A DNA stretch of 47,103 bases, from assembly GCA_030646915.1 (NCBI GenBank), contig JAUSKT010000012.1, positions 68,663 to 115,765 on the forward strand. The letters are read 5' to 3'. Below the pieces are notes generated by a model. The model worked only from the letters and a program-made list of their open reading frames with translations, was not told where the DNA came from and made no database searches. Position 1 is the stretch's first letter. Every line of letters starts with the position of its first letter. Positions 3,984 through 27,203 of the stretch are shown here, one piece after another. This DNA comes from a bacterium. Lineage in GTDB: Bacteria; Patescibacteriota; Minisyncoccia; UBA6257; 02-FULL-45-10c. Made by a program: the position numbers and the translations under genes.

Positions 3984-6440
3984 TTATAAACAAACTACTC
4001 CAACCACTTTATCTCCAGAGCTTACATTCATAATCCGGACGCCTTGAGTTGCCCGGCCGCTTAGCCTGATACTTTCAATCGGAGTGCGGATGATTTGTCC
4101 TTTAGCAGAAAGTGCTAAGATTTCTTTTTCCTCATTAACCATCGGAGAGGCAATGACTTGTCCGGTTTTCGTAGTGACTTTAGAAGTTTTGATTCCAGAT
4201 CCGCCTCGCCCTTGGACTTTATATTCGGAAAGCGGAGTCCGTTTACCAAAACCGTTTGCCATAACAGTCAATAATTGCCCCTTTTCATTTTCCTTAGTGA
4301 CAATATTAAGCGCTACGACAGAATCTCCTTTTCTAAGCCGGATTCCGCGGACGCCCGAAGTAGCCCGGCCCATTGAACGGAGCTGGGATTCTTTAAATCG
4401 GATTGCCTGGCCTTGTGCAGTGGCTAGAGTTACCTGATCGTTTCCGGAAGAAAGCCTTACCCACTGGAGCGAGTCACCTTTTTTTAATTTGATTGCGATA
4501 ATTCCGTTCCGGCGGACATTGGAAAAATCTTGAAGAGGAGTTTTTTTAATCAGGCCATTATGAGTGACTATCACCAGGAATCCAGGAATTGATTTTTTCT
4601 CGGCAGGATAAGTAATAATAGCGCTTATTTTTTCTTCAAGCGGAATTTCTAAGAAATTATGAATTGCTTTTCCTTTGGCAATCCGGGTCGCTTCAGGAAT
4701 TTCAAAAACTTTTGTTTGGAAAACCCGTCCGCGCTCGGTAAAAAATAAAATATTGTCATGAGTGTTGGAGGTCATGAAGTGGCTTAAGAAATCTTCTTCC
4801 GCGACATCGGATCCGATCAATCCTTTGCCGCCGCGTTTTTGCGAACGGAAACTGGAAGGCGGAACGCGCTTAATATATCCGCCCTGGGACATAGTGATTA
4901 TAGTTTCTTCTTTTGGAATTAAATCTTCCTCGTTAAATTCTTTAAGTCCGCCAATAACCACCTTTGTTTTTCTTTTATCGCCGTACTTTTCTTTTATTTC
5001 TTGCATTTCGTCTTTTACAACCTTAAGAATTTTAGCTGGGCTTTTTAAAAGAATATTTAATTCATCAATTATTTTTTTCTTTTCTTTCAGTTCTTCCTCG
5101 ATTTTTTCTCTTTCCAGCGCAGCGAGAGTCTGAAGCCGCATTTCCAAAATCGCTGTTGTCTGAAGATCGCTGAATTTAAATTTACTGACTAAATTTCTAT
5201 GCGCCTCTTCTTTGTCTTTGGATTTTTTAATAGTGGTAATAACGGCGTCAATATTTCCAAGAGCCTTATGAAGTCCCATTAAAATATGGGCGCGCTCCTC
5301 GGCTTTTTTAAGATCAAATTCTGCCCGGCGCCTGACTATTTCTTTTCTGTGTTCAATATAAGCAAGAAGAATATCTTTTACCGACATTACTTCAGGCTGT
5401 AAGCCATTTTTAGTCAGCGCAATCATATTCAAGTTGAAATTCTTTTGCAGGTCAGTGAATTGGAAAAGTTGGTTTAAAACTTTTTGCGGAGCCGAGTCAT
5501 TTTTCAATTCAATAATAATCCGGAGGCCGTCTTTATCAGATTCGTCCCGGACATCCCTAATCCCTTGCACTCTTTTTTCTGTAACCAGTTCGGCAATTTT
5601 AATAATCAATTCTGATTTGTTTACTTGGTAAGGAATTTCAGTGATCTCAATATTATATTGGCCTTTTTTCTGTTCTACTACCTCGGTTAACGCGCGGGTA
5701 GTGATAGCTCCATGCCCTGAGGCGTAGGCTTCACGGATGGCTTTTTGGTCATAAATAATTCCGCCGGTTGGAAAATCCGGGCCTTGGATAAATTCCATTA
5801 AATCAATAGCAGTAGCTTTTGGGCTGTCTATTAAATGGGAAGCGGCATCCACTAATTCTGATAAATTATTTGGAGGAATATTAGTTGCCATTCCTACGGC
5901 AATGCCGACAGTTCCGTTTAAAAGCAAATTCGGGAATTTTGCCGGCAAAACTTTCGGTTCTTGGCGGCTGCTATCATAATTTGGATTCCAATCAACAGTC
6001 TCTTTTTCTATATCTAATAGAAGCTCCTCAGACATTTTAGATAATCTGGCTTCTGTATAACGATAAGCGGCAGCCGAATCGCCATCAATACTTCCAAAAT
6101 TGCCTTGCCCTTCTACTAATGGATAACGGAGAGAAAAATCTTGCGCCATGCGGACCATAGCTTCATATACTGAAGAATCGCCATGGGGATGGTATTTGCC
6201 AAGCACTTCACCCACAATATTCGCGGATTTTTTAAATTTCGCTGAATGAGTAAGCCCGCTATCCCACATTGCCCAAAGAATCCTTCTTTGTACTGGCTTT
6301 AATCCATCCCGGACATCCGGAAGGGCGCGGGAAACAATGACAGACATCGCGTAATCCAAATATGACTCCTGCAATTCATCGGTGATTTCCCTGTCTTCTA
6401 TTCCGCTATGTAATTTTGGTTTTTCTTTTTCTTCTTTCAT
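3984..6440 (-). CDS. gyrA: DNA gyrase subunit A
   Basis: 818 residues, full length. GyrA cuts and rejoins DNA to introduce negative supercoils together with GyrB. The N-terminal domain has the winged-helix region around residues 31-50 ([20 protein letters not shown]), the quinolone-pocket motif [10 protein letters not shown] (84-93, Ser89 equivalent to E. coli Ser83), and the active-site tyrosine in YRYTEAR (Tyr128). The C-terminal beta-pinwheel carries the GyrA box as QKRGGKG, which separates it from ParC. The start ATG is directly abutted by a palindromic element; no Shine-Dalgarno precedes it, and a second ATGAAA lies on the far side of that element. Confidence 0.97.
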
Positions 6441-6555
6441 CCCGTTAGAGGCAGGTCGCGGTCTATTTGACTTAGTCCCGCCTTGAATTTAATTAATGTT
6501 TTGAATAATAACCTTTTTATATATAATCCCGCTAGCGACCGCGGCCTCTAACGGG
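6441..6555 (-). repeat. CCCGTTAGA-family palindromic element, gyrA copy
   Basis: 115 bp with inverted ends CCCGTTAGAGG and CCTCTAACGGG, extended by GCGGTC/GCGACC pairing, and an AT-rich centre that includes TATATATAA. It abuts the gyrA ATG exactly. On the minus strand it is flanked by ATGAAAT before and ATGAAAG after, a likely 6-bp target duplication that includes the start codon. The frame opened by the upstream ATG here stops after four codons. Confidence 0.85.
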
Positions 6556-6566
6556 ATTTCATTCCG

Positions 6567-6935
6567 CTATGGGAGTTTTTTCGGTTTTACATCCTCTAAG
6601 CCGTTTACAATAAAATTAAAATTCGCTCCTTGGATGGTAACTGAATTTTTTTTGCTTAAAAAATCCTTAAGATAATCGGCTAATTTGCTTATATTCAATC
6701 CGCTTTCTTTGGATAATACTATGATGCCATTTTTAAAAATTGAAAAAACACCAGTATTATTTTGCAAATTAACATCTTCTTTTTGGAGGCTTTTGACAGT
6801 CAGGTTAATATAGAAGATCCATAATATTAAAACTATAAGCATTGAACTACCGCTTAAAACAAAAAGCCAGCGTTTTTTTGTGTCTTCGCCGCTTTGCTGG
6901 ATTTCCATAAAAAAATTTTGAATTTTTGGAATCAT
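6567..6935 (-). CDS. Hypothetical single-pass membrane protein
   Basis: 122 residues. A charged N-terminus is followed by one hydrophobic segment (about residues 23-45, FVLSGSSMLIVLILWIFY) and an extracellular or periplasmic remainder with no cysteines. It is preceded by the MBL-fold gene with a 3-nt gap and followed by gyrA. No family recognised. Confidence 0.6.
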   Translation of the reverse strand: MIPKIQNFFMEIQQSGEDTKKRWLFVLSGSSMLIVLILWIFYINLTVKSLQKEDVNLQNNTGVFSIFKNGIIVLSKESGLNISKLADYLKDFLSKKNSVTIQGANFNFIVNGLEDVKPKKLP

Positions 6936-6938
6936 ATT

Positions 6939-7556
6939 TTAAATTTTTAATACTACTAATTTTATCCCCTTTTGTTCCAAAACTTCTTTTTTCCTGATAG
7001 TTAATTTTTCCTCAACTTCCGGTTTTTGTCCCATTTCATCTGCCAGGGCCCTCCAATCAGAGCTGGCTCTTTTTAATCCGGGAGTTTTGAAAAAAGAAGC
7101 TACAACAATTTTGGGATTCAGCTGTTTGATTAATTTTGCAGCCTTCTCCTGATTAATAAATGGTTTTCCGCCAGCCGGAATAAATAAAATATTGACATCT
7201 TTTAAAGGTTCTTGGGCTTCGGCGGGCATTTCCTCGCTGAGATGCCCTAAAAATCCTAAGGTTAGATCTTCGGCGCCCACTTTATAAATAGTTTTAAAAA
7301 ATTTTTCCGATGACTCCCCTAAAATCGAAAATCCGCTAATTGTAACGCCTTGTATTTCATACTCTCCTCCTCCGCGGATTACCTTACCCCCCTCTTCGTC
7401 CTCTGTCATTGGCCAAGGAGTGAGGGTTTTTAAAATAATCTCAGTTTTTCCTCTTGGCGGTGTTAAGCCGATAGAAGATTCAAAGGGGTCGGTTATTAAA
7501 GTAATGCCCCCGGTTTGAATTTTGAAACAGCCTTCCCCGTACCAGTTGATAATCAT
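6939..7556 (-). CDS. MBL-fold metal-dependent hydrolase-like protein
   Basis: About 205 residues from the chosen ATG at 7556, which gives MIINWYGEGCFKIQTG, the usual first strand of UlaG-like metallo-beta-lactamase-fold proteins. A longer in-frame reading from a GTG at 7598 would add 14 residues encoded by a palindromic element, so the ATG is preferred. Visible elements are TLITDPFE (the Asp-containing second strand), a glycine-rich stretch GGGEYEIQGV, LGFLGHL, and DVNILFIPAGG. The canonical HxHxDH zinc motif is absent, so it may be a degenerate, non-hydrolytic member. Patescibacterial genomes often place such a gene next to gyrA. Confidence 0.75.
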   Translation of the reverse strand: MIINWYGEGCFKIQTGGITLITDPFESSIGLTPPRGKTEIILKTLTPWPMTEDEEGGKVIRGGGEYEIQGVTISGFSILGESSEKFFKTIYKVGAEDLTLGFLGHLSEEMPAEAQEPLKDVNILFIPAGGKPFINQEKAAKLIKQLNPKIVVASFFKTPGLKRASSDWRALADEMGQKPEVEEKLTIRKKEVLEQKGIKLVVLKI

Positions 7557-7557
7557 A

Positions 7558-7698
7558 CCAGGTAGTGAAACTGCGATGCTCTTCGCAGAATTTAACACGT
7601 GTTAATTAATTAAAACGACTTCTTTAAATACTAATATTGCATTGCCTAATAGCTTACTGCGAAGAGAGTTAAATTCTAGTCGCAGTTCTACTACCTGG
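7558..7698 (-). repeat. Palindromic element abutting the MBL gene start, pseudoknot-like
   Basis: 141 bp with ends CCAGGTAGTGAAACTGCGA and TCGCAGTTCTACTACCTGG. Inside, CTCTTCGCAG/CTGCGAAGAG and GAATTTAAC/GTTAAATTC pair in interleaved order, as in an H-type pseudoknot. TATG flanks both sides (CATA at 7554-7557 and 7699-7702), and the copy next to the gene is its start codon. The terminal sequence differs from the CCCGTTAGA family but the placement is the same. Confidence 0.75.
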
Positions 7699-7769
7699 CA
7701 TACTTAAAGATTTTAACAAATTTTATTTATAAATTCAATGCCTTTTATTTGTGTAGTTGCAAATCTTTT

Positions 7770-7823
7770 TATAATGCATTATTATTTTTATTAATGTTTC
7801 CAGTGGCTGATTATTAGCCGCTG
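7770..7823 (+). promoter_or_regulatory. Probable -10 box and leader hairpin of rpsA
   Basis: TATAAT at 7770-7775 has no strong -35 at the right distance (TTGTGT at 7749 is the best candidate). A hairpin CAGTGGCT/AGCCGCTG (7801-7823) sits 8 nt before the rpsA ATG, and no Shine-Dalgarno is visible between them. Autoregulation of S1 through this hairpin is possible but only inferred. Confidence 0.45.
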
Positions 7824-7831
7824 ACAATATA

Positions 7832-8923
7832 ATGATTAATAGTCTTAAAAAAACCGATTCAGTGATTGCCAATTTGCTTAAGTCTTCTCCGGATTTAATG
7901 GGGATGGTGAAAGAGGGCGATTTAGTGACGGCTAAACTTTTAAATCGCGCCCCTCGGGCAGTTTATTTTGATTTAGGAAAATATGGCACCGGAGTTGTTT
8001 ATGGAGTGGAGCTTTTAAACGCAAGGGAAGTTTTAAAGAATTTAAAAGAAGGCGATACGGCTTCCGCAAAAGTGGCAGATGTTGAAAATGAAGACGGCTA
8101 TGTTGAACTTTCTTTGGCTGGAGCGGAAAAACAAAAATCTTGGCAGGTAGTCCGGGAATTGGCGGAAAAAGGAGAAGAGGTTTCAGTTAAAATTGTTGGC
8201 GCAAATTCTGGCGGCTTAATGACAGAAATCGGAGGCTTAAAAGCTTTTTTGCCGGTATCCCAGCTTTCCAGCGAACATTATCCGCGGGTAGATGACGGCG
8301 ATAAGGCAAAAATTTTGGAAGAATTAAAAAAATTCGTCGGACAAGAATTAAAAGTAAAAGTTTTAGATGTTAATCCGCGCGCTGAAAAATTAATTCTTTC
8401 TGAGAAAGAAGTTACCAGCGTGAATCTTAAGGAAAAATTGGCTAATTATAACGTAGGCGATGTCATAGACGGAATTATTTCCGGAGTGGCGGATTTCGGC
8501 GCTTTTGTGAAATTTGCCGATAATCCTGACGTGGAAGGATTAATCCATATTTCAGAATTAGACCATAAATTAATTGAGAATCCGAAAGAAATTGTAAAAG
8601 TTAATGATCAGGTAAAAGCAAAAATTTTAGAAATCAAAGACGGCCGAGTGACTCTTTCTTTGAAGGCATTAAAAGAAGATCCTTGGCAAAAAGTAGAAGA
8701 GCGCTATAAGGCAGGAGCAGAAGTAGAGGGAACCGTAACCAGATTTAATCCTTTCGGCGCTTTCGTGGCTTTAGACGCGGAAATTCAGGGATTGATCCAC
8801 GTTTCAGAATTCGGCAGCGTGGAAGAAATGAAATTGAAAATAAAAGAAGGCGAACGCTACAAATTCCACATTGATTCAGTAAAGCCGGCAGAAAAAAGAA
8901 TCATCTTGAAGTTAAAAAAATAA
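7832..8923 (+). CDS. rpsA: 30S ribosomal protein S1
   Basis: 363 residues with four S1 RNA-binding domains, at about residues 25-90, 110-180, 195-265 and 280-350. The best conserved are domain 3 (GDVIDGIISGVADFGAFVKF, VEGLIHISEL) and domain 4 (GTVTRFNPFGAFVALD, IQGLIHVSEF). E. coli S1 has six domains; four is usual for compact genomes. S1 helps bind mRNA to the 30S subunit, which matters here because many genes lack an obvious Shine-Dalgarno. It has its own promoter region and terminator, so it is probably monocistronic. Confidence 0.95.
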   Translation: MINSLKKTDSVIANLLKSSPDLMGMVKEGDLVTAKLLNRAPRAVYFDLGKYGTGVVYGVELLNAREVLKNLKEGDTASAKVADVENEDGYVELSLAGAEKQKSWQVVRELAEKGEEVSVKIVGANSGGLMTEIGGLKAFLPVSQLSSEHYPRVDDGDKAKILEELKKFVGQELKVKVLDVNPRAEKLILSEKEVTSVNLKEKLANYNVGDVIDGIISGVADFGAFVKFADNPDVEGLIHISELDHKLIENPKEIVKVNDQVKAKILEIKDGRVTLSLKALKEDPWQKVEERYKAGAEVEGTVTRFNPFGAFVALDAEIQGLIHVSEFGSVEEMKLKIKEGERYKFHIDSVKPAEKRIILKLKK

Positions 8924-14439: not shown

Positions 14440-15204
14440 GTGGCTAACAAAGTCTGGGTCTTTGATTTGGATGGAACTTTGATGAATAGCGATTTCTATA
14501 AAAAACCGGCCGAAGAAGCCTATGCGGAAATTATGCGGGCGCTGGGAGATAAATCCCCGTCTTTTGCTGAAATTAAATCTCGCCATAATGATTTTGATAA
14601 GGCGATGATTTATGTAAAAAATCCAAGCACTGGAAAACTTTATTTGTATTCAAAACAGCGTTTCCCAACCTCTTTAGTAAAATTCTACGAAATGCTTTGT
14701 AAAGAAGCAGGCGCGGAAACCGATTTCTCGCTCATGAGAAAGCTTTATAATATCGGCTTAAAGGCATTTAAAGAAGAGCGGTATATTAGAAAAATTAAGG
14801 CACAGGCTTTTACTGTAGCAAAATTTCTTAAGGGGAAAGGAGATACCTTATTGGTTCTTACTAAGGGTGATAAGCGGGTGCAGGGCGATAAGAGACGGGC
14901 TTTGAAGAAAGCCGGCCTTCTTAAATACTTTGACGATTTCATTATTGCGCCAGATAGCAAGTACGGATTTTTCAAGCTAATACGAAGCAGGTATAAAGGT
15001 GATGCTTATTATAGCATTGGCGATACTTATGCTGATGATATTCTGCCCGCAATCAAGGCTGGTTATTTCGGAGTATATATCCCATTTTCATTAAATTGGA
15101 AGGAAATCGGCAAATTTAAAAGAATTGAGCGCAGGCGAAGCAAGAAGAATTCTAACCGTTATGATAATTTAGTAGAAATAGCAGAAAAGTATGACCATTT
15201 GTAA
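14440..15204 (+). CDS. HAD-superfamily hydrolase
   Basis: 254 residues from a GTG start at 14440, chosen because the HAD motif I strand KVWVFDLDGTL begins four codons later and an AAGGA lies about 8 nt upstream. Motif I is DLDGT (nucleophile and acid Asp), motif II is the VLTKGDK region, the motif III Lys lies in KKAGLLKYF, and motif IV is IGDTYADDILPAIKAG. An all-helical cap follows motif I. Such enzymes are usually phosphatases; the substrate cannot be read from the sequence. Monocistronic with its own terminator. Confidence 0.85.
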   Translation: MANKVWVFDLDGTLMNSDFYKKPAEEAYAEIMRALGDKSPSFAEIKSRHNDFDKAMIYVKNPSTGKLYLYSKQRFPTSLVKFYEMLCKEAGAETDFSLMRKLYNIGLKAFKEERYIRKIKAQAFTVAKFLKGKGDTLLVLTKGDKRVQGDKRRALKKAGLLKYFDDFIIAPDSKYGFFKLIRSRYKGDAYYSIGDTYADDILPAIKAGYFGVYIPFSLNWKEIGKFKRIERRRSKKNSNRYDNLVEIAEKYDHL

Positions 15205-15230
15205 AACAGCGCTAAGCGCTGTTTTTTGTT
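15205..15230 (+). terminator. Intrinsic terminator after HAD gene
   Basis: Self-complementary ACAGCGCTAAGCGCTGT followed by TTTTTTGTTTTT. Confidence 0.85.
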
Positions 15231-15268
15231 TTTAATCCGGCAAATGTCGCATAATATTGGAGTGAAAC

Positions 15269-15338
15269 CCCGTTAGAAGTCCGCTCTCGCCAAGAGCGAG
15301 TGGCGGCAGCCACCTTGGGGCGGCTTACTTCTAACGGG
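15269..15338. repeat. CCCGTTAGA-family palindromic element in the GTGAAACA array
   Basis: 70 bp with ends CCCGTTAGAAG/CTTCTAACGGG and inner hairpins CGCTCTCG..CGAGAGCG-like and GGCGG/CCGCC. It is flanked on both sides by GTGAAAC, consistent with a 7-bp target duplication. Confidence 0.8.
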
Positions 15339-15513
15339 GTGAAACAATTATGTGAAACATTGGGTAAGATTTCCCTATTAAAGTAACCCAACTACCGTTA
15401 CGTGAAACATTTTTAACGCCTTAGTAAACGCTTTAAAATATGTTTCACGCTTAAAGCGTGAAACATTGGTACGGCTTTGAGCCTATTCTTGGAAGATGTC
15501 AGTTACGTGAAAC

Positions 15514-15582
15514 CCCCACACCTAATGAGTTTTAGTTTGCCAAAGGCAAACAAGATTTTAATTAAACTCATTAGGTGTGGGG
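15514..15582. repeat. Second palindrome flanked by GTGAAAC
   Basis: 69 bp with near-perfect arms CCCCACACCTAATGAGTTT and AAACTCATTAGGTGTGGGG and a GCCAAAGGC centre. GTGAAAC flanks both sides. The terminal sequence is unrelated to CCCGTTAGA but the target is the same. Confidence 0.8.
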
Positions 15583-15758
15583 GTGAAACACTGATTGGGC
15601 GTAATACATGAAACATTTTCAGATAAATAGGCCTATTTAAAAACCAATGTTTCACACTAGCGTGAAACATTGGTAATGATTTGTGGTTAAATTCTAAAAT
15701 TTGTTTCCGGTGAAACAAATCTATTGTAAAAGCTTTTGTTTTACATTAAGTTTTATTG

Positions 15759-16247
15759 ATGACGCAAAAATCTGAGATCGGAAAATTAGGAGAAGATCTA
15801 GCTTGTGAGTATTTAATTAAGAGGGGATATAAAATTATTGAGCGTAATTTTAGAAAGCCATGGGGAGAATTGGATATTATTGTGAAACAAAATAATGGGA
15901 CTTTAATTTTTGTGGAAGTAAAGACAATAAAGCAAACCGAAGAATTTCGTGGGATCTATAATTTGGCTGAATACGCTCCTAATTCTTTATGGCAAGCAAT
16001 TCGGCAATACGGCAATACGGCAATGCTTAGAAAAATGCGGCAAAAAATTGGCTGGAAAGAATCTTTGCAAATAATGCCAGAAGAAAATTTGACTGCGGCT
16101 AAACTTAAAAAACTTCAAAGAACCGCCCAATTATATGTTGGTCATAATCAAGAATTAGTAGACGATAAGATGGGATGGAGAATTGATTTAATTGCTATAA
16201 CTTTATGTGGCGATTCAGCCGACATTAAATATTTTGAAAATTTATAA
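15759..16247 (+). CDS. YraN-family (UPF0102) nuclease-like protein
   Basis: About 162 residues from ATG 15759 (a TTG one codon earlier is less likely). The family core is intact: IGKLGEDLACEYLIKRGYKIIERNFR, then GELDIIV and LIFVEVKT. The Glu, Asp and ExK residues are those of a restriction-endonuclease fold. The protein is longer than usual for the family (about 120) because of an insertion around residues 68-125, near a short tandem repeat (CGGCAATA at 16010-16024). The biological role of YraN proteins is not settled; a nucleic-acid-processing function is likely from the fold. Confidence 0.85.
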   Translation: MTQKSEIGKLGEDLACEYLIKRGYKIIERNFRKPWGELDIIVKQNNGTLIFVEVKTIKQTEEFRGIYNLAEYAPNSLWQAIRQYGNTAMLRKMRQKIGWKESLQIMPEENLTAAKLKKLQRTAQLYVGHNQELVDDKMGWRIDLIAITLCGDSADIKYFENL

Positions 16248-16301: not shown

Positions 16302-17633
16302 TTAAAAGCTTCGGACAAATGATACGCCCCATTGATAAACATTGGGGACAGGAAGATTAATTTTCCAATAGGAAAATTCCCATTTTATATCAAAATCTTC
16401 AGTCAGCGCATAATTGAGTCCAAAAGTATATTTATTAACTGATGTATTTATGCGTTTGTTACTTGGGGCAAATGCTAAATGTCTAGTATTTGAAGAAAAC
16501 ATCATTTCTGGCCCCCGCCTTTCTAACCGGCCAAAAGATACTATTCCCAATAATTGTTTTCTGATTGGAAATGCGCCTTGTAAATAAAGCCCCCTGTTAA
16601 TTTCTAATTTTGTAGGCAGTTGTTCCGTGTTTTGCAAGAAATCTATTTCTCCATCGGCGTCAGCCTGGGCATGGCGGAATTTATTTTCGCCATAAACATA
16701 TTCTCCAGTGAAGCTAAGGCGGCGGTATCGGAAAGAAAGATCTGTTCCTAAAATAGTATAAGGAAGGCCTGGTTCCAGCGAATAAGTTCCGCTATGCATC
16801 CCGGATAATCCCAAGCTGATGCCCGTCAGTTTTATGCGTTTTTTTTCAGAAATCGGATGGGAGAATTTAAAGTCGCCAAGAAGAAATTCCATTCTTCCGC
16901 CAAAGGCTTTTTGGTTGAAGTGGGACGCAAGCCGATTTTTGGTATTTCCAAAATCCAGATCCACGCCTCCAATTGGCGGAGGGGGAATGCCAGGCATTTG
17001 GGAATTAGGAAAAGTTCGGGATCGGTCGCTGATTTCTCCAAGTCCGTTTACTACATAAATGCTGAGAATTTTAGGAATATAAATTTTATCAGATTCAGAA
17101 TTATAACTTAAATTCAATCCAGTATCGCTATAGCCGGGAGTTAAAATAGCGCGAGGGCCATTAAGCCGGTGGCTGATGAAGTCTAAATCGCTGGGATCGG
17201 CATAGATATCCGGGCGGGTAAGGGTAAGAAACTGATCTGGTTTATATAAGCTATTGTAATAGCCGAAAGGAACCAGAAATTTTCCGATTTTAATTTCGTA
17301 ATTTTCATAAGTGAGTTGGGAATAAAGCTGATATAGGACAATATGTCCGTTTTCCGGCGGTGGAATTTTGAATTCCGCAAAAATTTTATTTTCCCAATGG
17401 GTGGGGCCGATATCAAATGCGGGATATTGCCAGTTCCATCCAAAAAAAGCAATGATCCAAATCGGATTTTGAATTATGAATTCATTCCTTTGATTTTCTG
17501 GGCCATTGATTCTGAAGTTTAAAGCAAAGCTGCCGTTAAAATTAGCAGGAGTTTGTTCGTCAGTTTTGGCGAAAGAAATAGGGCTAGAAGCAAAGAAAAA
17601 AATAATAGCAAGCAGAAGTTGGGACCTCTTCAT
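16302..17633 (-). CDS. Predicted outer-membrane beta-barrel porin
   Basis: 443 residues. A signal peptide ends near SSPISFA (residue 22). The mature protein is built of alternating polar/hydrophobic strands with aromatic girdles and turns, for example KIFAEFKIPP, LYSQLTYENYEIKIGKFLVPFGYYN and GRMEFLLGDFKF. It ends with a terminal strand WGVSFVRSF whose last residue is Phe, the signal read by the BAM machinery of diderm bacteria. The pattern resembles porins of the phosphate-selective/OprO-like group. Patescibacteria are generally regarded as lacking a standard outer membrane, so this is unexpected. Codon use is as AT-rich as in its neighbours. The gene is monocistronic with its own terminator. 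Confidence 0.7.
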   Translation of the reverse strand: MKRSQLLLAIIFFFASSPISFAKTDEQTPANFNGSFALNFRINGPENQRNEFIIQNPIWIIAFFGWNWQYPAFDIGPTHWENKIFAEFKIPPPENGHIVLYQLYSQLTYENYEIKIGKFLVPFGYYNSLYKPDQFLTLTRPDIYADPSDLDFISHRLNGPRAILTPGYSDTGLNLSYNSESDKIYIPKILSIYVVNGLGEISDRSRTFPNSQMPGIPPPPIGGVDLDFGNTKNRLASHFNQKAFGGRMEFLLGDFKFSHPISEKKRIKLTGISLGLSGMHSGTYSLEPGLPYTILGTDLSFRYRRLSFTGEYVYGENKFRHAQADADGEIDFLQNTEQLPTKLEINRGLYLQGAFPIRKQLLGIVSFGRLERRGPEMMFSSNTRHLAFAPSNKRINTSVNKYTFGLNYALTEDFDIKWEFSYWKINLPVPNVYQWGVSFVRSF

Positions 17634-17722: not shown

Positions 17723-20164
17723 ATGAAAAAATATTGGGCTTTAGGAATTTTAATAATAGGAACCCTTTTTCTTTTTGGGAATTTAAATTTAGTCCAAGCT
17801 ATCCCCACTATTACTGGTCTTTCTTATCCCCCCTCGGATGACATCAAGAACTTCTATATTTGCCCAGAACAAACTGGGCATCCCGACGTTAGCAATATTC
17901 ATTCTTGGACTTCCTGTGATATTGGAGGAAATGGTAAATTATTAGTTCCAAATGTGCCAGATACTGCTCGCGGTAACCGATTGCAGTGGGCGGCTGAAGT
18001 TCTTGTAAATGCTGCTAATAAAATGGTTGATTCTTGTCGGGGCGGGTATATTCATATTAACAGTGGCACTAACCTTCAATGGGCTGGTTTGAGCGGAATA
18101 GCGATGAGAGCCTATCCTCAATTTAATTGGTCAGCGGGTAGTATGACTCGGAGTCCCTCCAGGACATCATTAATTCGTTATACGAATTGGTACGCCGGAA
18201 ATGGAGAAATTAATGGAATGAATATGCTGATTGCCCCCTGCCCTAGGCTGGATGCCTCGACGAGTCTTTGTATAAATAATGAAACTGGAATTTGTAATTT
18301 GGATTCAAATACTCCAATTATAGTTACTCCCGGCACAGAATATAAAATCACATGGAAATCTCAATATGCCGAAAGTTGCACAATGACGGGACCAGAAGAT
18401 ACTTTTGGTTCGCCTCAGATTAGTGAATATGACCCGGCAAACAGAAAAATTATTTCTATACAAACTCAGCGCCCTACGGCAGTTAAAAATAATAACAGTA
18501 GCGACATCAGAAGATATAGACTTTCTTGCACCGGGGTTTTAGACGGCAGCGTTAGTGGTGCTCCGAGTACCATAACCAGAGACGCCTTAGTATATATTGG
18601 CGACATTCCAGCAGCGCCGCAAGTCGTTTCTTTTACAGTCAGTCCAAACCCAATTAATAAAGGCCAAAAAGCAGTTTTAAAATGGCAGACTTCAAATGCT
18701 GATAGAGTAACAATTAAAAATTTAACTACTCAGCAAGTTGAGCAAGTAGCTGCCATAGAAGAAAGAGGCAAGGAAGTCATGCCAACGCAGTTCACCACCT
18801 ATACATTAAAAGCAGAAAATACTATATACCCGCTTACCAGCCCATCTAGGTCAGTTACTTTAAAAGTCTTGGCTCCAGGCACTAAGCCAATCCCAATAGT
18901 TCCTGGAGTTCCGGAAATTCCAACAGCTCCGCCAGATGAAGCTTCACCAACAGAAGCTCCATCAGAATCAGCGCCGGACAAAGTTGATGTGAAAGTTAAT
19001 GATTCAGACGGGCCAATAACAGTGGGCGCGCCCGCGAATTTAAATATTTCTTGGAATTTGGACCGATATTGCTTGGCTTATGGTTCTTGGTTTGGATTTA
19101 AAACAAAAGCCGGAAGCCAAATTGTGAATGTTGCAAAAGCCGGCGATTATACTTATAAACTTTATTGCCCAGGATTTAATTCAACTTCAGATGAAGTTTC
19201 GGTAAAAGTCTTGGGCGGGGGAAGTACCGCAGGTGTTTCAGGCACCCCAGGCGCGCCAGCAATTCCATTTCCAGCTGCGGAAGCGAGTATTAGTTTGGAT
19301 GGCAAAAACTTTTTAAGGAGCGTTCGGGTAACGCAAGGAAAACCAGTAAGCCTTTGGCTTTCTGCCGGTTATGATATTAATGGAGATCGCAGAGTTTCCA
19401 GAAGCGAAGATGGGGGATGGAGCAGTTTGATGTCCGGCGGAGGGAGATGCGATTTTAATTATGATTTGAAAGATAATCCAATTTTTGAGGCTTCGGTTTT
19501 TAATCCCCAAAATGCCAAAGAATGCACTGCGCCCTTGGAAGAGAAAGTATTTAATGATCCGCCAGGAGTTTATAGGTTTGCAGTATTACGGTTAGTTCAA
19601 TCTGACGGAAAAGTTTCCAATACTGGATATGTCAATATAGCAATTCAACCGCCTCCTCCCCCAACTGGTCCGCCAATAGTAGATTTTAAAATTAATGGAG
19701 TGGAAGGCCCGCTGAATTTGGGGGCGCCGGCTTCTTATAATTTAACTTGGCAAGTTTCTAATGCCGACACTTGCGATGCTTCAGGTTCTTGGAGTGGATC
19801 AAAAGGAATTGCCGGTTCAGAAAGTTTGGTGAGTTCAATTAAAAGAGATTTTGAATATACTCTTTCTTGCACGGGAAAATTAGGAACCACTGCAAAAACT
19901 ATTTTATTAAAAGTTGCGGAAATCCCGGTTTGTGAATTTACGGCATTGCCTAAAGTTTTAGGCCAGTCCGCATTTATTAATGAATCTGTTTTAAGCTGGA
20001 AATGCCAGTTTGCTAATAGCTGTTCAATTTCTCCGAGCGTCAATACAAGTGTTGATACTTTCGGTTCAGTCCGGGTTTCACCGGCAGTTACTACAAAATA
20101 CACCTTGAACTGCCAAAATCTTGAAGGCAGAGCGAGTTTTGACCAGGAAGTAGAAGTTCGGTAA
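17723..20164 (+). CDS. Large secreted protein with Ig-like repeats
   Basis: 813 residues. The signal peptide (residues 1-26, ending LVQA) is followed by an N-terminal domain of unknown type (residues about 27-180). Several Ig-like modules follow, with recurring patterns such as YKITWKSQYAESC, AVLKWQTSNADRV, YNLTWQVSNADTC and SVLSWKCQFANSC. Pro/Ala/Thr-rich linkers separate them (near residues 390-425 and 500-520). Paired cysteines in each module suggest disulphides, so it functions outside the cell. There is no obvious sortase motif or C-terminal anchor. It is probably an adhesin-like or surface-layer-associated protein. Confidence 0.8.
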   Translation: MKKYWALGILIIGTLFLFGNLNLVQAIPTITGLSYPPSDDIKNFYICPEQTGHPDVSNIHSWTSCDIGGNGKLLVPNVPDTARGNRLQWAAEVLVNAANKMVDSCRGGYIHINSGTNLQWAGLSGIAMRAYPQFNWSAGSMTRSPSRTSLIRYTNWYAGNGEINGMNMLIAPCPRLDASTSLCINNETGICNLDSNTPIIVTPGTEYKITWKSQYAESCTMTGPEDTFGSPQISEYDPANRKIISIQTQRPTAVKNNNSSDIRRYRLSCTGVLDGSVSGAPSTITRDALVYIGDIPAAPQVVSFTVSPNPINKGQKAVLKWQTSNADRVTIKNLTTQQVEQVAAIEERGKEVMPTQFTTYTLKAENTIYPLTSPSRSVTLKVLAPGTKPIPIVPGVPEIPTAPPDEASPTEAPSESAPDKVDVKVNDSDGPITVGAPANLNISWNLDRYCLAYGSWFGFKTKAGSQIVNVAKAGDYTYKLYCPGFNSTSDEVSVKVLGGGSTAGVSGTPGAPAIPFPAAEASISLDGKNFLRSVRVTQGKPVSLWLSAGYDINGDRRVSRSEDGGWSSLMSGGGRCDFNYDLKDNPIFEASVFNPQNAKECTAPLEEKVFNDPPGVYRFAVLRLVQSDGKVSNTGYVNIAIQPPPPPTGPPIVDFKINGVEGPLNLGAPASYNLTWQVSNADTCDASGSWSGSKGIAGSESLVSSIKRDFEYTLSCTGKLGTTAKTILLKVAEIPVCEFTALPKVLGQSAFINESVLSWKCQFANSCSISPSVNTSVDTFGSVRVSPAVTTKYTLNCQNLEGRASFDQEVEVR

Positions 20165-20264: not shown

Positions 20265-20336
20265 ATCTCGCCTCTGCATAAAGCTTCGGCGAGATGCTCA
20301 ATTTTGTAGATAAATTTTTGTCGCTACAAATTGAGC
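20265..20336 (+). promoter_or_regulatory. nusA leader with two consecutive hairpins
   Basis: Hairpin 1 is ATCTCGCC/GGCGAGAT (20265-20295). Hairpin 2 is GCTCAATTTTGTAG/CTACAAATTGAGC (20296-20336) with one bulged base. An ATG at 20294 sits at their junction and is in frame with nusA. A smaller TCCGC/GCGGA hairpin at 20219-20233 may end the preceding transcript. Confidence 0.55.
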
Positions 20337-20359
20337 TAAAAAATTTATACAAAATTGGC

Positions 20360-21676
20360 ATGTTTAATTTAAAAGAATTAAAAAAAGCAGTAGAGCAGAT
20401 TTCCCAGGAAAAGGGCGTTGATCCGCAGAAAGTTTTTGAGGCGCTGGAAATGTCTTTGGCAGCGGCTTATAAAAAAGAATATTGCGGAAAAGGCGAAGTA
20501 GTCCGGGCTAAATTTGACCAAAAGACCGGCGCTTTGAAATTTTGGAAAGTAAAAACTGTAGTGGATGAAACCAAGGTTCGGATAGTTGAAGAAGAGCCAG
20601 TTCCGGAAGGCGGAGTGCCAGAAAATGACTCCCGCCAATTTAGAGAGAGAGAAGAAGTTTTCCAAGAAGGTGAGGGCGTTTTACCTCGTTACAATCCCGA
20701 CCGGCATATTTTTTTGGAAGAAGCTAAAAAGGAAAAATCCGATGCAGTTTTAGAGGAAGAATTGGTTTATCCATTGGAAACTCATGATGATTTCGGCCGG
20801 ATTGCCGCCCAGACTGCCAAACAAGTTATCTTACAGAGATTGCGCGAAGCAGAAAGAAATTCTATTTTAGAAGAATATAAAAATAAAGAAGGTGAAATTG
20901 TCAGCGGATTAATCCAGCGTTATGACCGCGGGAATGTTTTTGTCGACTTGGGCAGGGCAACGGGCATTATGTTTCATAATGAATCCATTCCTGGGGAGAG
21001 GTATACCGTCGGTGATCGTATGCGCTTTTATATTTTAGCGGTTCAAGAGGAATCCCGAATTCCAGGAGTTATCCTTTCCCGTTCTCATCCGAAATTTATC
21101 AGCAAACTTTTTGAATTAGAAGTTCCAGAAATTAATGATGGGATTGTAGAGATCAAATCCATTGCTCGGGAACCGGGCAGCCGGACTAAAATTGCAGTTT
21201 ATTCCAATACTGAAGGAATTGATCCTGTGGGATCTTGTGTCGGCCAGCGTGGAACTAGAGTAATGGCAGTTTCTAATGAATTGGGCCAGGAAAAAATTGA
21301 TATTATTGAGTGGGCAGAAGCTCCGGAAAAATTTATTGCTAATTCTCTTTCTCCCGCCAAGGTGACTAACGTGGAAATTTCGCCAAGGAGAGAAGCAAAA
21401 GCTTTTGTTCCGGAAGACCAATTGAGTTTGGCAATCGGAAAAGGAGGGCAGAATGTCAGATTGGCAGCGAAACTTACCAGCTGGAAAATAGATGTCCGTT
21501 CGCAATCCAATCCAGATGAAGCGATAGTTGGCGGAACAGCTGATTCTGTGGAATCTAAATCTTCAGATGAAGCTGCTGTTGAAAAAACAGAACCTGTTTT
21601 GGAAAATAAAAATTCTCCTGCTCCTGAAAATAGCGAAGCTCCAAAAAAACGAGGCCGAAAGAAAAAAACTGAATAA
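20360..21676 (+). CDS. nusA: Transcription termination/antitermination factor NusA
   Basis: 438 residues from ATG 20360, which gives [19 protein letters not shown], the normal N-terminus. An in-frame ATG at 20294 would add 22 residues encoded by a leader hairpin. Domains: NTD for RNA polymerase binding (1-140), S1 (about 195-260, [20 protein letters not shown]), KH1 ([14 protein letters not shown]) and KH2 ([16 protein letters not shown]). A Lys/Arg-rich tail ends in KKRGRKKK. NusA controls pausing, intrinsic termination and antitermination. The acidic repeats found in E. coli are absent. Confidence 0.95.
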
Positions 21677-21681
21677 AATTT

Positions 21682-23658
21682 ATGTTAACTTTATTAATTT
21701 TTATACCAGTTGTTTTAGCTGTTACTTACAGTGTTTATCTAATGCTTTGGCTTCAAAAACAGCCCAATGGAAATGCAAAAATGGTTGAAATTGCCGCTGC
21801 TATTCAGGATGGGTCGGCTGCTTTTTTGAATCGCCAATATAAAAGTGTGGCTGTTGTGGCCGCTATTTTACTTATTGCTATTTATTATTTATTAGGAGGA
21901 ATGTCCGCTCTCGGATTTTTAATCGGGTCTTCTGCGTCTGCTTTGGCTGGTTATATCGGAATGAATGTCGCAGTGCGGTCTAATTCTAAAACTGCAGAAG
22001 CCGCAAATCAAGGCTTGAATTCCGCGCTATCTCTCGCTTTCAGGGCTGGTTCAGTTACAGGATTTTTAGTTGTTGCCCTAGGTCTTTTATCAATTGCCGG
22101 ATTTTATCTTGCGACTAATGATGTTAAAGCTTTAATCAGTTTAGGTTTTGGCGCAAGTTTAATTTCAATTTTTGCCAGATTAGGAGGGGGTATTTACACT
22201 AAAGCCGCGGATGTGGGAACTGATTTAGTTGGAAAAGTTGAGGCTGGAATTCCAGAAGATGATTTGAGAAATCCAGGCGTGGTTGCGGATCTTGTGGGTG
22301 ATAATGTCGGAGATTGCGCTGGAATGGCCGCGGATCTTTTTGAAACTTACGCGGTTACTCTTATCGCAGCAATGCTTCTTGGTTCATTAATTGATAAAAG
22401 CGCAACCAGCCCATTGGTAGTTTTTCCTTTGGTTCTTGGCGGCCTTGCGATTGTGGCATCGCTTATAGGAAGTTTTTTTGTAAAAGTTAATCAGGGCGGT
22501 TCTATAATGGGAGCTTTATATAAAGGCTTGATTGCATCCTTGGTTGTATCAGCAGTTTTATTTTATCCAGCGGCAAGATTTTATTTTGGCGAGGGATATT
22601 GGAATTTTTATCTTGCGACTTTAGTCGGGCTTTTAGTTACTGCATTAATGGTGGTAGTGACGGATTATTATACGGCAAAAAATTATCGGCCGGTTAAATC
22701 CATAGCTGAAGCCTCTAATTCCGGACATGGCACCAATATTATTATTGGGCTTTCTGTTGGTATGGAATCTACTTTTATTCCAATTTTAATTATCGTCGCA
22801 GCAACTTTAGTCAGTTATTTTCTTGCCGGACTTTATGGAATTTCTTTGGCGGCAACTTCAATGCTTTCAGTTGCCGGAATTATCGTGGCAATTGATTCTT
22901 TTGGGCCGGTTACGGATAATGCCGGAGGCATAGCGGAAATGAGCGGCGCTCCTGCTAATGTCCGTAACATTACCGATGCGCTTGATGCGGTTGGCAATAC
23001 TACTAAAGCCGTTACTAAGGGCTATGCGATTGCTTCTGCTGGACTTGCCGCGCTTGTGCTTTTTACGGGCTATGTCGAAGAATTTGCGGCAAAATCCCAA
23101 AACTTAGCTTTTGACTTAAAAGATCCGTATGTTGCTGCTGGGCTTTTGTTGGGTGCTGCAATTCCATATCTTTTCGCTTCAATTGCAATGAAATCAGTTG
23201 GTAATGCTGCTGGAGCGGTAGTGGAAGAAATTAGGAGGCAATTCCGGGAAATTCCTGGAATTATGGAATTTAAAGCTAAGCCGGATTATGCCCGTTGTGT
23301 TGATATTGTTACTAAGGCTGCATTAAAAGAAATGATAGTACCGGCAATAATTCCAATTTTGTCTGTAGTTTTAGTAGGAGTATTTCTCGGACCAAAAGCG
23401 CTGGGTGGATTTTTAATGGGAACTATTGTTGCTGGAATTTTCTTGGGGATTTCCATGACGACTGGCGGAGCTGCTTGGGATAATGCGAAAAAATATATTG
23501 AGAGCGGAAATTTTGGCGGAAAAGGTTCTGAAGCCCATAAAGCCGCCGTCACTGGCGATACTGTCGGCGATCCATACAAAGACACTGCCGGTCCGGCAAT
23601 CAATCCCTTGATTAAAGTTATAAATATTGTTGCCCTTCTTTTAGTTCCATTTTTATAA
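21682..23658 (+). CDS. hppA: Membrane-bound proton-translocating pyrophosphatase
   Basis: 658 residues with about 15-16 transmembrane helices. It couples hydrolysis of pyrophosphate to H+ (or Na+) export. Substrate-site motifs are all present: [11 protein letters not shown], the acidic cluster [15 protein letters not shown], and [15 protein letters not shown] near the C-terminus. The determinant motif reads [10 protein letters not shown]: Lys where K+-dependent enzymes have Ala, so a K+-independent, probably H+-pumping enzyme is expected. It would supply membrane potential in a cell with little respiratory capacity. It starts 5 nt after nusA. Confidence 0.95.
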
Positions 23659-23666
23659 AATGAAAT

Positions 23667-24047
23667 CCCGTTAGAGATAACCATTTATCCCGTTAGAAAA
23701 TTAACAAATATGAAATTTTTAAATCAAAACTTATCAAGGATTATAGAAAGTCTTATGTCCCTAAGGCACCGGGTTTAATTTTCTAACGGGATGAATTATG
23801 TCTACGTTATACGGAGTAAAAAGAGCGGATATTTGTATACTGGGTATACGGCCGATCTACGGAAACGTTTTAACCAGCATAACGAGAATAAACATGGTTT
23901 TACTAAAAAACGGGGACCATGGGAACTTATCTACTATGAAGCATGTCATAATCAACAAGATGCAACGTCGAGAGAAAAATATTTAAAATCGGGAATGGGC
24001 AAGCGTTACCTAAAAAACAGGTTAAAACGTTTCCTATCTCTAACGGG
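23667..24047 (+). mobile_element. Candidate mobile element carrying a GIY-YIG nuclease
   Basis: 381 bp bounded by inverted ends CCCGTTAGAGATA (23667-23679) and TATCTCTAACGGG (24035-24047), and flanked by ATGAAAT (23660) and ATGAAAC (24048), a likely 6-bp target duplication. It contains a nested 102-bp CCCGTTAGA palindrome and one gene, the GIY-YIG nuclease. Removing the element would put the tig ATG one nt after the hppA stop, a normal operon junction. The termini match those of the non-coding elements at gyrA, ftsH and hsp20, so this may be the coding parent of the family. Confidence 0.6.
23689..23790 (+). repeat. CCCGTTAGA-family palindrome, nested copy before GIY-YIG gene
   Basis: 102 bp with arms CCCGTTAGAAAATTAA and TTAATTTTCTAACGGG, abutting the GIY-YIG ATG. 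Read in the same frame as the ftsH copy it encodes PVRKLTNM followed by a diverged 21-residue tail and a stop. The left flank ATTTAT only partly resembles the right flank ATGAAT. Confidence 0.82.
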
Positions 24048-24051
24048 ATGA
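23791..24051 (+). CDS. GIY-YIG single-domain nuclease
   Basis: 86 residues, the size of YhbQ/UPF0213-type proteins. The GIY-YIG core is intact: YVYVIRSKKSGYLYTGYTADLRKRFNQHN (Tyr pair, catalytic Arg), followed by the conserved Glu in WELIYYEA and a basic C-terminal helix. These nucleases cut DNA strands in repair, restriction and intron homing. The gene lies wholly within a CCCGTTAGA-bounded element, and its last codons are written by the element end. Its TGA overlaps the tig ATG (ATGA), which would couple tig translation to it. Confidence 0.85.
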   Translation: MNYVYVIRSKKSGYLYTGYTADLRKRFNQHNENKHGFTKKRGPWELIYYEACHNQQDATSREKYLKSGMGKRYLKNRLKRFLSLTG

Positions 24052-25298
24052 AACACACACTTAAAAAATTACCAGATTCAATTGTAGAGCTGGAGGTAGT
24101 TTTGGATCATGACGAGTTTTTGAATTATTGGCAGCCGGTTTATGACGCGGCGCTTTCGGGTGTTCATTTGAAAGGTTTTCGTCCTGGAACTGCGCCAAAA
24201 GATATGGCGGAAAAAGCCGTGGATAAAGAAAAAGTTTTTAGCGAGGCAGCTAACAAAGCAATCCGTGATTCTTTGCAGGAAATCAATGAAGAAAATGATT
24301 GGCAATTAATTGACCAGCCGAAAGTGGAAGTTTTGGAAAGCGAAAAAGGATTAAAATTTAAAGCAACCCTCACAATTTTCCCGGAGGTGAAAATTGGAAA
24401 TTATGGAAAAATTGTTAAACGCGTAATTTCTGATAAAAAAGAAGCCGTTATCACCAGCGAGGAATTGGAAAAATCCATTAATTGGGTTTTGGGTTCCCGG
24501 GCGAAAATTGTGAAAGCTAATCACGAAGCTAAAAAGGGCGATTTGGTGGAAGTGGAATTTTCCGGTTCTGTAGATGGAAAGCCCTTGGATGGCGCTAGCG
24601 GAAAATCTGACCAGTTTATTTTAGGAGAAGGAAAATTTATTGCCGGTTTTGAAGAAAATATTATCGGCCATAAATCCGGAGAAAATCTGGAATTTTCCGT
24701 TAATTTTCCGAAAGATTACTGGAAAGAGGATTTGCGGGATAAAAAAGTGGATTTTAAAGTTAAGGTGGAAGAAGTTTTTGACCGGCAATTGCCGGAATTA
24801 AATGATGAATTTGCCAAAGGATTAGGCAAATTTGAAACTGCAGAAGATCTTAAAAAGAGCATTAAAGACGGGATAATGAAGGAAAAATTGGAAAAAGAGA
24901 AAGAAAAAAACCGCTTGAAAATAATGGAAGAGATCATTAAGGATTCCAAAATTGAATTGCCTAAGGTCATGGTGGAACGGACTTTGGATAATTTGGTGGC
25001 GGAATACAAAGCAATGGTTTCTCCGGCCTTAAAAAAACTTGAAACCGACGAAGAAGTTAAAAAAAGATTGGAAGATAAAGCTCGGAGTAGCGTCGCCAGT
25101 AATTTGGTTTTATATCAGATAGCCAAAGACCAGAAATTAGAGCCGTCCCAAGAAGAAGTGGAAAAAGAAACCAATGCATTTTTGTCTAATTCTCATTTTT
25201 CCCGTGATCCGCAAATTGACCCGCAAAAAGTTTATGATTATAGTTATGGTATAGTTCAGAATCGGAAAGTTTTTGAGTATCTTGAGTCGTTAAAATAG
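24048..25298 (+). CDS. tig: Trigger factor
   Basis: 416 residues. Ribosome-associated chaperone that receives nascent chains. The N-terminal ribosome-binding domain has VHLKGFRPGTAPKDM (the signature loop, normally GFRxGxxP). The FKBP-type prolyl isomerase domain spans about residues 155-245 (GDLVEVEFSGSVDGKPLDGA, FIAGFEENIIGHKSGE). The C-terminal helical arm domain follows. The start codon is also the right-hand duplicated target of the GIY-YIG element, and no Shine-Dalgarno directly precedes it other than those inside the nuclease gene. Confidence 0.94.
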   Translation: MKHTLKKLPDSIVELEVVLDHDEFLNYWQPVYDAALSGVHLKGFRPGTAPKDMAEKAVDKEKVFSEAANKAIRDSLQEINEENDWQLIDQPKVEVLESEKGLKFKATLTIFPEVKIGNYGKIVKRVISDKKEAVITSEELEKSINWVLGSRAKIVKANHEAKKGDLVEVEFSGSVDGKPLDGASGKSDQFILGEGKFIAGFEENIIGHKSGENLEFSVNFPKDYWKEDLRDKKVDFKVKVEEVFDRQLPELNDEFAKGLGKFETAEDLKKSIKDGIMKEKLEKEKEKNRLKIMEEIIKDSKIELPKVMVERTLDNLVAEYKAMVSPALKKLETDEEVKKRLEDKARSSVASNLVLYQIAKDQKLEPSQEEVEKETNAFLSNSHFSRDPQIDPQKVYDYSYGIVQNRKVFEYLESLK

Positions 25299-25366
25299 TT
25301 AAAAGTTCATAATGTCTGTAAAGTACTTTAAGGACTTTATGACTTTAGACTTTACAAACTAAACTT
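25299..25366 (+). repeat. Short tandem ACTTTA-type repeat between tig and clpP
   Basis: Several copies of ACTTTA(A/T)GG/GACTTTA units at intervals of 8-10 bp (25320-25360). No promoter or terminator stands out. Confidence 0.5.
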
Positions 25367-25972
25367 ATGGAACACAGCGATTATTTAATCCCAACAGTAA
25401 TAGAAAAAACCCAGATGGGCGAGCGCGCCTATGACATTTATTCGCGACTTTTGAAAGAGCGGATTATTTTTCTTGGCGGGCCAATTAATGACGGGGCGGC
25501 AAATACAGTAATTGCCCAGCTTTTATTTTTAGAGCATGAGGACGCAAAAAAAGATATCAAGCTTTATATTAATTCTCCGGGCGGATCAGTTACTGCCGGA
25601 CTCGCGATTTATGACACTATGCAATATATTAAGCCGGATGTTTCTACGATTTGTATTGGAATTGCCGCTTCTATGGGCGCAGTTTTGCTTGCCGGCGGGA
25701 AAAAGGGAAAACGGATCGCGCTTCCGAATTCAGAAATTCTTTTGCATCAAGTTATGGGAGGCGCAGAAGGCCAGGCGTCAGAAATTGAAATTACTGCCAA
25801 GCACATTGTGCGGATGAAAGAACAGCTTAGCCAGATTCTTGCCAAGCATACTGGGCAATCGCTTTCAAAAATTGAAAAAGACACTGACCGGGATTTTTGG
25901 CTTACTCCTCAGGAAGCCAAAGAATATGGACTAATAGACGAAGTTTTGAAGGGAAGGAATAATGCGAAATAA
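25367..25972 (+). CDS. clpP: ATP-dependent Clp protease proteolytic subunit
   Basis: 201 residues. Serine peptidase forming the double heptameric barrel that degrades proteins fed by ClpX or ClpC. Catalytic triad: Ser102 in [11 protein letters not shown], His127 in [11 protein letters not shown], Asp172 in KDTDRDFW. The oxyanion-loop GGSVTAG is present. Only a short propeptide is possible. It follows tig, as in many bacteria where tig-clpP(-clpX) form an operon; clpX is not here. Confidence 0.97.
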
Positions 25973-25973
25973 T

Positions 25974-26006
25974 AAAAGCTCCTGTTTAAGACAGGAGCTT
26001 TTTGAT
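25974..26006 (+). terminator. Intrinsic terminator after clpP
   Basis: Stem AAAAGCTCCTGT/ACAGGAGCTTTTT with a short loop. Confidence 0.9.
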
Positions 26007-26024
26007 TTATAATAAAAGCATTGT

Positions 26025-27203
26025 ATGAATAATGATTTATTAACCCGCGGAGTGGTGGAAGTCATAGAAAAAGAGCATTTAGAGAAGCTATTAGATGGCA
26101 ACCCTTCGGCTGGGCTCAGGGCAAGAAAATTGCGGGTTAAATTTGGCATTGATCCGACTGCGCCGGATTTGCATTTAGGACATACGGTGCCGCTTCGAAA
26201 ATTGCGGCAGTTTCAGAATGCGGGACATAGGGCTATTTTAATAATCGGTGATTTTACGGCAAAAATTGGCGATCCGTCCGGACGCGATAAAACCCGCCCC
26301 CAACTTTCAGATGTAGAAATTAAAAAGAATTTAAAAACTTATTTAACTCAAGCCAAAAAAGTTTTAGACCTTAAAAAAACGGAAATTCATAACAATAGCG
26401 AATGGTTTAAAAAAGATAAATTGATTTTGGAGTTGATGTCGCAGATGTCCATCGAACGGGTGATAGAGCGGGAAGATTTTCAAAAAAGAATTAAAGCCGG
26501 CCAGGAAGTGACTATGCTTGAAACTTTATATCCGATTTTGCAGGGCTATGATTCCGTTGCGGTAAAAGCGGATTTAGAAATTGGCGGCAGCGATCAGAAA
26601 TTTAATTTGCTGATGGGAAGGCGGTTTCAAAGGAAATATGGCCAGTCGGAGCAAGATGTTTTAATGCTCCCGCTTTTGGAGGGTACAGATGGAGTTCAAA
26701 AAATGAGTAAAAGTTTGGGAAATTATATTGGGCTTACAGAAAAGCCGGAAATTATGTTCGGGAAAATTATGTCCGTGCCGGATGAATTGGTTATGAAATA
26801 CGCGGAACTTTTGACGGATTTGCCTTTGGATAAGATGTCCGGAAAATTAAAATCTGATCCGCGCGGGGCAAAACTAGAGCTCGCTAAAACTTTAGTAGAA
26901 ATGTATCATGGCGCTCCTGCCGGAAAAAAAGCTGAAGAGGAATTTGTGCGAGTAGTATCAAAAAAACAAACACCAACAAAAGTTATAAGTTATAAGTTGT
27001 CAGTTATAAGTTTACCCCTGGTTGATTTATTAGTTGAAACAAAAATGGCTTCCAGCAAAGGCGAAGCGCGGCGTTTAGTTGAGCAAGGCGGAGTAAAAAT
27101 TGGCGGAGAAAAACAAGGCGATCCAAATAAAATAATTGATTTAAGTTCAAAAAAATTGCTTCAGGTTGGAAAAAATAGATACTTGCAAGTTTTTCATAAA
27201 TAG
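26025..27203 (+). CDS. tyrS: Tyrosyl-tRNA synthetase
   Basis: 392 residues, class I. Charges tRNA-Tyr. HIGH-type motif in GIDPTAPDLHLGHTVPL, KMSKS motif in VQKMSKSLGNYIGL, and a C-terminal S4 RNA-binding domain (from about residue 330, LVDLLVETKMASSKGEARRL). Two likely in-frame insertions interrupt it: residues 25-34 (NPSAGLRARK) from a CCTTCGG..CTCAGGGCAAG repeat, and residues 319-330 from tandem GTTATAAGTT copies (26979-27010). Both lie in linkers outside the catalytic core. Confidence 0.96.
   Translation: MNNDLLTRGVVEVIEKEHLEKLLDGNPSAGLRARKLRVKFGIDPTAPDLHLGHTVPLRKLRQFQNAGHRAILIIGDFTAKIGDPSGRDKTRPQLSDVEIKKNLKTYLTQAKKVLDLKKTEIHNNSEWFKKDKLILELMSQMSIERVIEREDFQKRIKAGQEVTMLETLYPILQGYDSVAVKADLEIGGSDQKFNLLMGRRFQRKYGQSEQDVLMLPLLEGTDGVQKMSKSLGNYIGLTEKPEIMFGKIMSVPDELVMKYAELLTDLPLDKMSGKLKSDPRGAKLELAKTLVEMYHGAPAGKKAEEEFVRVVSKKQTPTKVISYKLSVISLPLVDLLVETKMASSKGEARRLVEQGGVKIGGEKQGDPNKIIDLSSKKLLQVGKNRYLQVFHK

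Follow-up and report, generated by a model that had tools for sequence, protein, structure and literature searches.

A predicted 16-stranded porin gene in the Harrisonbacteria, a patescibacterial family

The porin gene and its surroundings

The stretch of DNA analysed here (the window; 47,103 nucleotides of contig JAUSKT010000012.1, assembly GCA_030646915.1) contains an intact gene for a putative porin, flanked by the genes listed in Table 1. The first-pass annotation had called it an outer-membrane porin in a patescibacterial context, on account of a signal peptide, an alternating beta-strand pattern and a C-terminal Phe. On inspection, the N-terminus, MKRSQLLLAIIFFFASSPISFA followed by K, is Sec-like, and the C-terminus, ..VYQWGVSFVRSF, has GVSFVRSF as its last residues. 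All nine aligned homologs retain the terminal Phe; a hydrophobic N-terminus likewise occurs in the homologs, and inspection finds both the Sec signal and the C-terminal aromatic beta-signal in the window porin and its homologs.

Table 1. Features at the porin locus (positions in the window)
Feature	Position	Strand	Remarks
Porin gene	16302..17633	minus	ORF of 443 aa, ATG start, intact
Signal sequence, Sec-type, about residues 1-22 (MKRSQLLLAIIFFFASSPISFA)	17568..17633	minus	By inspection
C-terminal strand ..VYQWGVSFVRSF, BAM-type beta-signal, terminal Phe	16305..16340	minus	Phe in 9/9 homologs
YraN/UPF0102 gene	15756..16247	plus	Pfam PF02021, 6.2e-22; convergent porin neighbour, kept in three genera
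813-aa predicted secreted protein	17723..20164	plus	Signal-like N-terminus; divergent porin neighbour in three genera
nusA, H+-pyrophosphatase, trigger factor, apparent clpP, tyrS	20294..27203	plus	Pfam matches for nusA, hppA, tig, tyrS

The sole Pfam match of the protein is to OMP_b-brl and lies below threshold (E 0.07). There is no match in NCBIfam or PHROGs, and a comparison of PDB chain sequences with the porin sequence and with a porin profile returned nothing relevant. Single-sequence searches thus fail to name this protein. An AlphaFold2 model built from a nine-row alignment has 16 strands (pLDDT 67.6, pTM 0.70) and is weak in loops 141-160 and 199-239. All the matches listed by Foldseek are porins or porin-like outer-membrane channels (best E 8e-11), and VIA-align gives Z values above 20 to many solved 16-stranded porins across approximately residues 25-443. 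The model therefore gives good support to a 16-stranded porin fold, and the porin call and the strand alternation read from the sequence are both borne out.

The block containing nusA to tyrS is 59-93% identical to Harrisonbacteria loci. Within the stretches compared, the window and two of these loci (L010 and L011) have a common order of tyrS, clpP, tig, hppA, nusA, the secreted protein gene, the porin gene, yraN and a HAD hydrolase gene, with the porin on the opposite strand. In L016 the porin lies in the same region, beyond tyrS and after an acyl-CoA-ligase-like gene (L016:8103-9740, G379:C35). The latter is directly upstream of the porin homolog and is not conserved elsewhere; it might hint at fatty-acid uptake. 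In L012 the porin is found at a place other than the tyrS-yraN block. The GC content of the porin gene (39.9%), its codon fit and its 4-mer profile resemble those of its neighbours and of the whole 115,765-base contig, which is compositionally even. Synteny, even composition and the codon-position divergence described below speak against the chimeric assembly that the first-pass annotation had raised, and fit long residence in a patescibacterial genome.

Other features were seen at these loci. Between the HAD hydrolase gene and yraN (15200-15700 in the window), apparent inverted repeats and recurring 'aatgtttcac' motifs are visible by eye. A LAGLIDADG-endonuclease-like ORF adjoins yraN in L010 (11849-12307) and L011 (11924-12376); none was seen in the window.

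Distribution and origin of the porin

When 244 genomes of the order were searched, porin homologs turned up in four further genera, all within the same family: L010 (genome G382), L011 (G383), L012 (G380) and L016 (G379), all 'Candidatus Harrisonbacteria'. In this search they are 33-50% identical (32-48% in the overall comparison), full-length or nearly so, and contain no internal stops. Divergence amongst the homologs is greatest at codon position 3 and least at position 2, which, together with the lack of internal stops, indicates that the porin is more than a chance ORF. We are highly confident that the ORF is a real gene for a 16-stranded porin and belongs to the Harrisonbacteria.

The genome containing the window was the only one with a porin match, both when 383 sampled class genomes were searched with a profile and when 379 sampled phylum genomes were searched with the single sequence. 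An alignment-based pattern scan of a collection of 84,980 species genomes brought to light homologs in three metagenome-assembled genomes (MAGs) of Elusimicrobia, together with one weak Chlorobiota match. Full-length relatives outside the family were found only in these Elusimicrobia MAGs (L013, L014 and L015; 33-45% identity). No convincing relative was found in viral contigs or plasmids; a match to an Alteromonas plasmid was weak (E 0.1) and was rejected.

The Elusimicrobia porins share 37-45% identical residues with the four closer Harrisonbacteria proteins and 33-36% with that of L016. In a phylogenetic tree the Elusimicrobia and Harrisonbacteria porins are separated with support of 99/99; L016 and the Chlorobiota sequence sit on long branches, and the position of the root is uncertain. 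Elusimicrobiota are diderm and, in the genomes sampled, the gene is limited to one patescibacterial family; from this we infer, including as to direction, that the porin was transferred into the Harrisonbacteria from an Elusimicrobia-like donor or from a shared third source, which supports acquisition, one of the options named in the first-pass annotation. The gap in GC content between the porin genes of the Elusimicrobia (59-66%) and those of the Harrisonbacteria family (40-50%) points to an old transfer. An ancestor of the family probably gained the gene from an Elusimicrobia-like diderm, and inheritance thereafter seems to have been largely vertical, under purifying selection.

Outer-membrane machinery and the site of porin action

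A search for BamA and LptD had been proposed as a check on the porin call. Canonical BamA, LptD and LpxC were not detected in any of 17 genomes of the family, nor was TolC over cut-off; the absence of LptD is weak, as the control of that search matched in only 2 of 14 genomes, and the LpxC control exceeded its cut-off in 4 of 14. Omp85-type proteins were found in three family genomes (G388, G389 and the porin-bearing G383).

The Omp85 profile (PF01103) exceeded its cut-off in G388 and G389. The proteins encoded there (L026:4246-8145 in G388; L025:138-3995 and 4106-8035, in tandem, in G389) are of approximately 1,300 aa and combine a zinc-peptidase-like region, a TolB-like propeller and a C-terminal Omp85-like barrel. 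The G383 protein (L018:178-1854, G383:C4) has 558 aa, with a signal sequence, one POTRA and an Omp85-type barrel. It matches TIGR03303 at 9.1e-16 and Omp85_fam at 3.7e-6; its score against the BamA equivalog TIGR03303 is 57 bits against a cut-off of 297, and the match extends over no more than one POTRA and the beginning of the barrel. It thus falls short of the BamA equivalog and is filed here as Omp85-superfamily-like only. The gene is flanked by an HtrA-like protease gene and an LTD-domain-like gene; in G380 the porin is found in this neighbourhood.

No relative of the G383 protein was found in the other family genomes. An Omp85 insertase was not found in the genome containing the window (G000, 77% complete), nor were Omp85 or POTRA found by profile searches in the porin-bearing G382 (99% complete). 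Absence of Omp85 from family genomes is not firm, because PF01103 itself missed the G383 protein. Amongst 360 sampled genomes of the phylum, Omp85 matched in two, in one of them over cut-off. An apparent full-length BamA (L031; G271:C18:3527-4543) is present in another patescibacterial family, where contamination is possible. Three further matches were rejected. A sub-cut-off Omp85 match in G243 was judged spurious, since the protein looks like a multi-spanning membrane protein with repeats; a POTRA-like match in G000 (C17, E 0.003) is a stretch of under 100 aa beside an HU-like gene and was judged to be due to chance; and a TolC-like match in G383 falls in a protein of 522 aa whose sequence suggests the membrane-fusion/HlyD type rather than TolC.

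Small barrels matching OMP_b-brl (PF13505) over the curated cut-off are present in four family genomes, and the control genomes matched in this search were all diderms. Two of the genomes concerned, G384 and G392, have 6-7% contamination and are to be discounted. One of the barrels comes from a genome that is 99% complete; its gene sits on a contig of 554 kb, with dnaX-like and typA-like genes next to it. Small OMP_b-brl barrels with a signal peptide and a terminal Phe were seen in the family at L048:9485-10186 (G385:C3), L037, L043, L044, L041 and L012:181-867; a single-sequence fold of the one in L012 gave no confident model (pLDDT 31.5).

Patescibacteria are generally regarded as cells with a single membrane and as episymbionts. 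The reading we prefer, to which we give about an even chance, is that the porin, most like OprO/OprP, sits in an LPS-free outer layer of the organism's own cell. The protein would exit via Sec, lose its signal peptide and be inserted into this outer lipid layer as a diffusion channel, probably trimeric; this step would depend on a divergent Omp85-type protein. The family also encodes other barrels of outer-membrane type, which lends circumstantial support to an own outer layer, an option already named in the first-pass annotation; that canonical BamA, LptD, LpxC and TolC went undetected weakens it. It is also at odds with cryo-EM and gene-content work, from which CPR cells are inferred to lack an outer membrane (PMC7137472, PMC6744442), as in a further study (PMC12102498). 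An incomplete literature search, mostly by title, found no description of porins in Harrisonbacteria or other CPR. More tentatively, and on balance improbably, the Harrisonbacteria, within the supposedly monoderm Patescibacteria, may have come to possess an LPS-free outer membrane a second time, its porins and small barrels being derived from neighbouring diderms and assembled by a minimal or divergent Omp85 system.

Alternatively, as the first-pass annotation also allowed, the porin may act on a partner cell, a diderm, and work in the outer membrane of that cell, which we consider unlikely. It would be exported through the epibiont envelope and inserted with the aid of the partner's BAM, so that the partner leaks small nutrients. 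An episymbiotic lifestyle, the existence of porin-bearing genomes such as G382 without a detectable insertase, and the presence of porin relatives in diderm Elusimicrobia, some of them from groundwater like Harrisonbacteria, are consistent with this. However, Sec is the only evident export signal on the porin, and the Omp85-type proteins encoded in the family would be odd for export alone. Moreover, we know of no well-established precedent for the insertion of a porin from outside.

A different function for the barrel within a monoderm envelope, whether as vesicle cargo, embedded in the wall or a lipid-like surface layer, or reworked into a surface or adhesion protein, is similarly doubtful. 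Such a role would agree with the failure to find lipid-A and LPS-export genes, or any TolC over cut-off, and with the large secreted protein encoded by the conserved neighbour of the porin. Against it, five genera have kept the terminal Phe together with the fold and its barrel pattern, so loss of a membrane role is not evident. Finally, although the porin-bearing genomes are apparently all MAGs, and that containing the window is in 22 contigs, an assembly or binning artefact is highly improbable given the same gene order in separate assemblies from three genera, a homogeneous contig and native codon use in the porin gene.

Current reconstructions have the outer membrane being lost along the stem that leads to CPR/Chloroflexota (PMC12329446). 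A family with an intact, selected porin and other outer-membrane-type barrels is a direct exception to the monoderm view, and identifies the Harrisonbacteria as a specific lineage in which a second membrane is worth seeking. Should there be no outer membrane, the conserved porin would suggest that it acts on a host or that porins can take on a new function. Whether or not a second membrane is found, the result bears on how epibionts acquire nutrients and on how far the diderm/monoderm transition can be reversed.

Comparison with known porins

The best structural matches of the model are the Pseudomonas phosphate- and pyrophosphate-selective porins OprP (Z 22.9, rmsd 3.2 over 297 residues) and OprO (Z 22.5), which belong to Pfam PF07396 (Porin_O_P) and have the same 16-stranded barrel. 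The window porin is only approximately 12% identical to them and does not match PF07396; its best relative in the family scores 19.6 bits against a gathering score of 20.9 (E 5.9e-4). The VIA-align matches lie within 1-2 Z units of one another, so that a particular affinity of the modelled porin to OprO/OprP is suggestive only. In contrast to these porins, that of the window belongs to a phylum thought to be monoderm, and the predicted likeness is at the level of the fold.

The general trimeric porins (OmpF/OmpC, OmpU and PorB) also have the 16-stranded fold, with Z values of 20-22. The window porin is approximately 6-11% identical to these and is longer, with residues 199-239 ill-modelled. 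The Elusimicrobia porins have different gene neighbours (ferredoxin-like and alpha/beta-hydrolase-like), but share with the Harrisonbacteria porins the motifs GKFLVPFG.YNELYRPD and LADNNNNKA.GGR, as well as the C-terminus.
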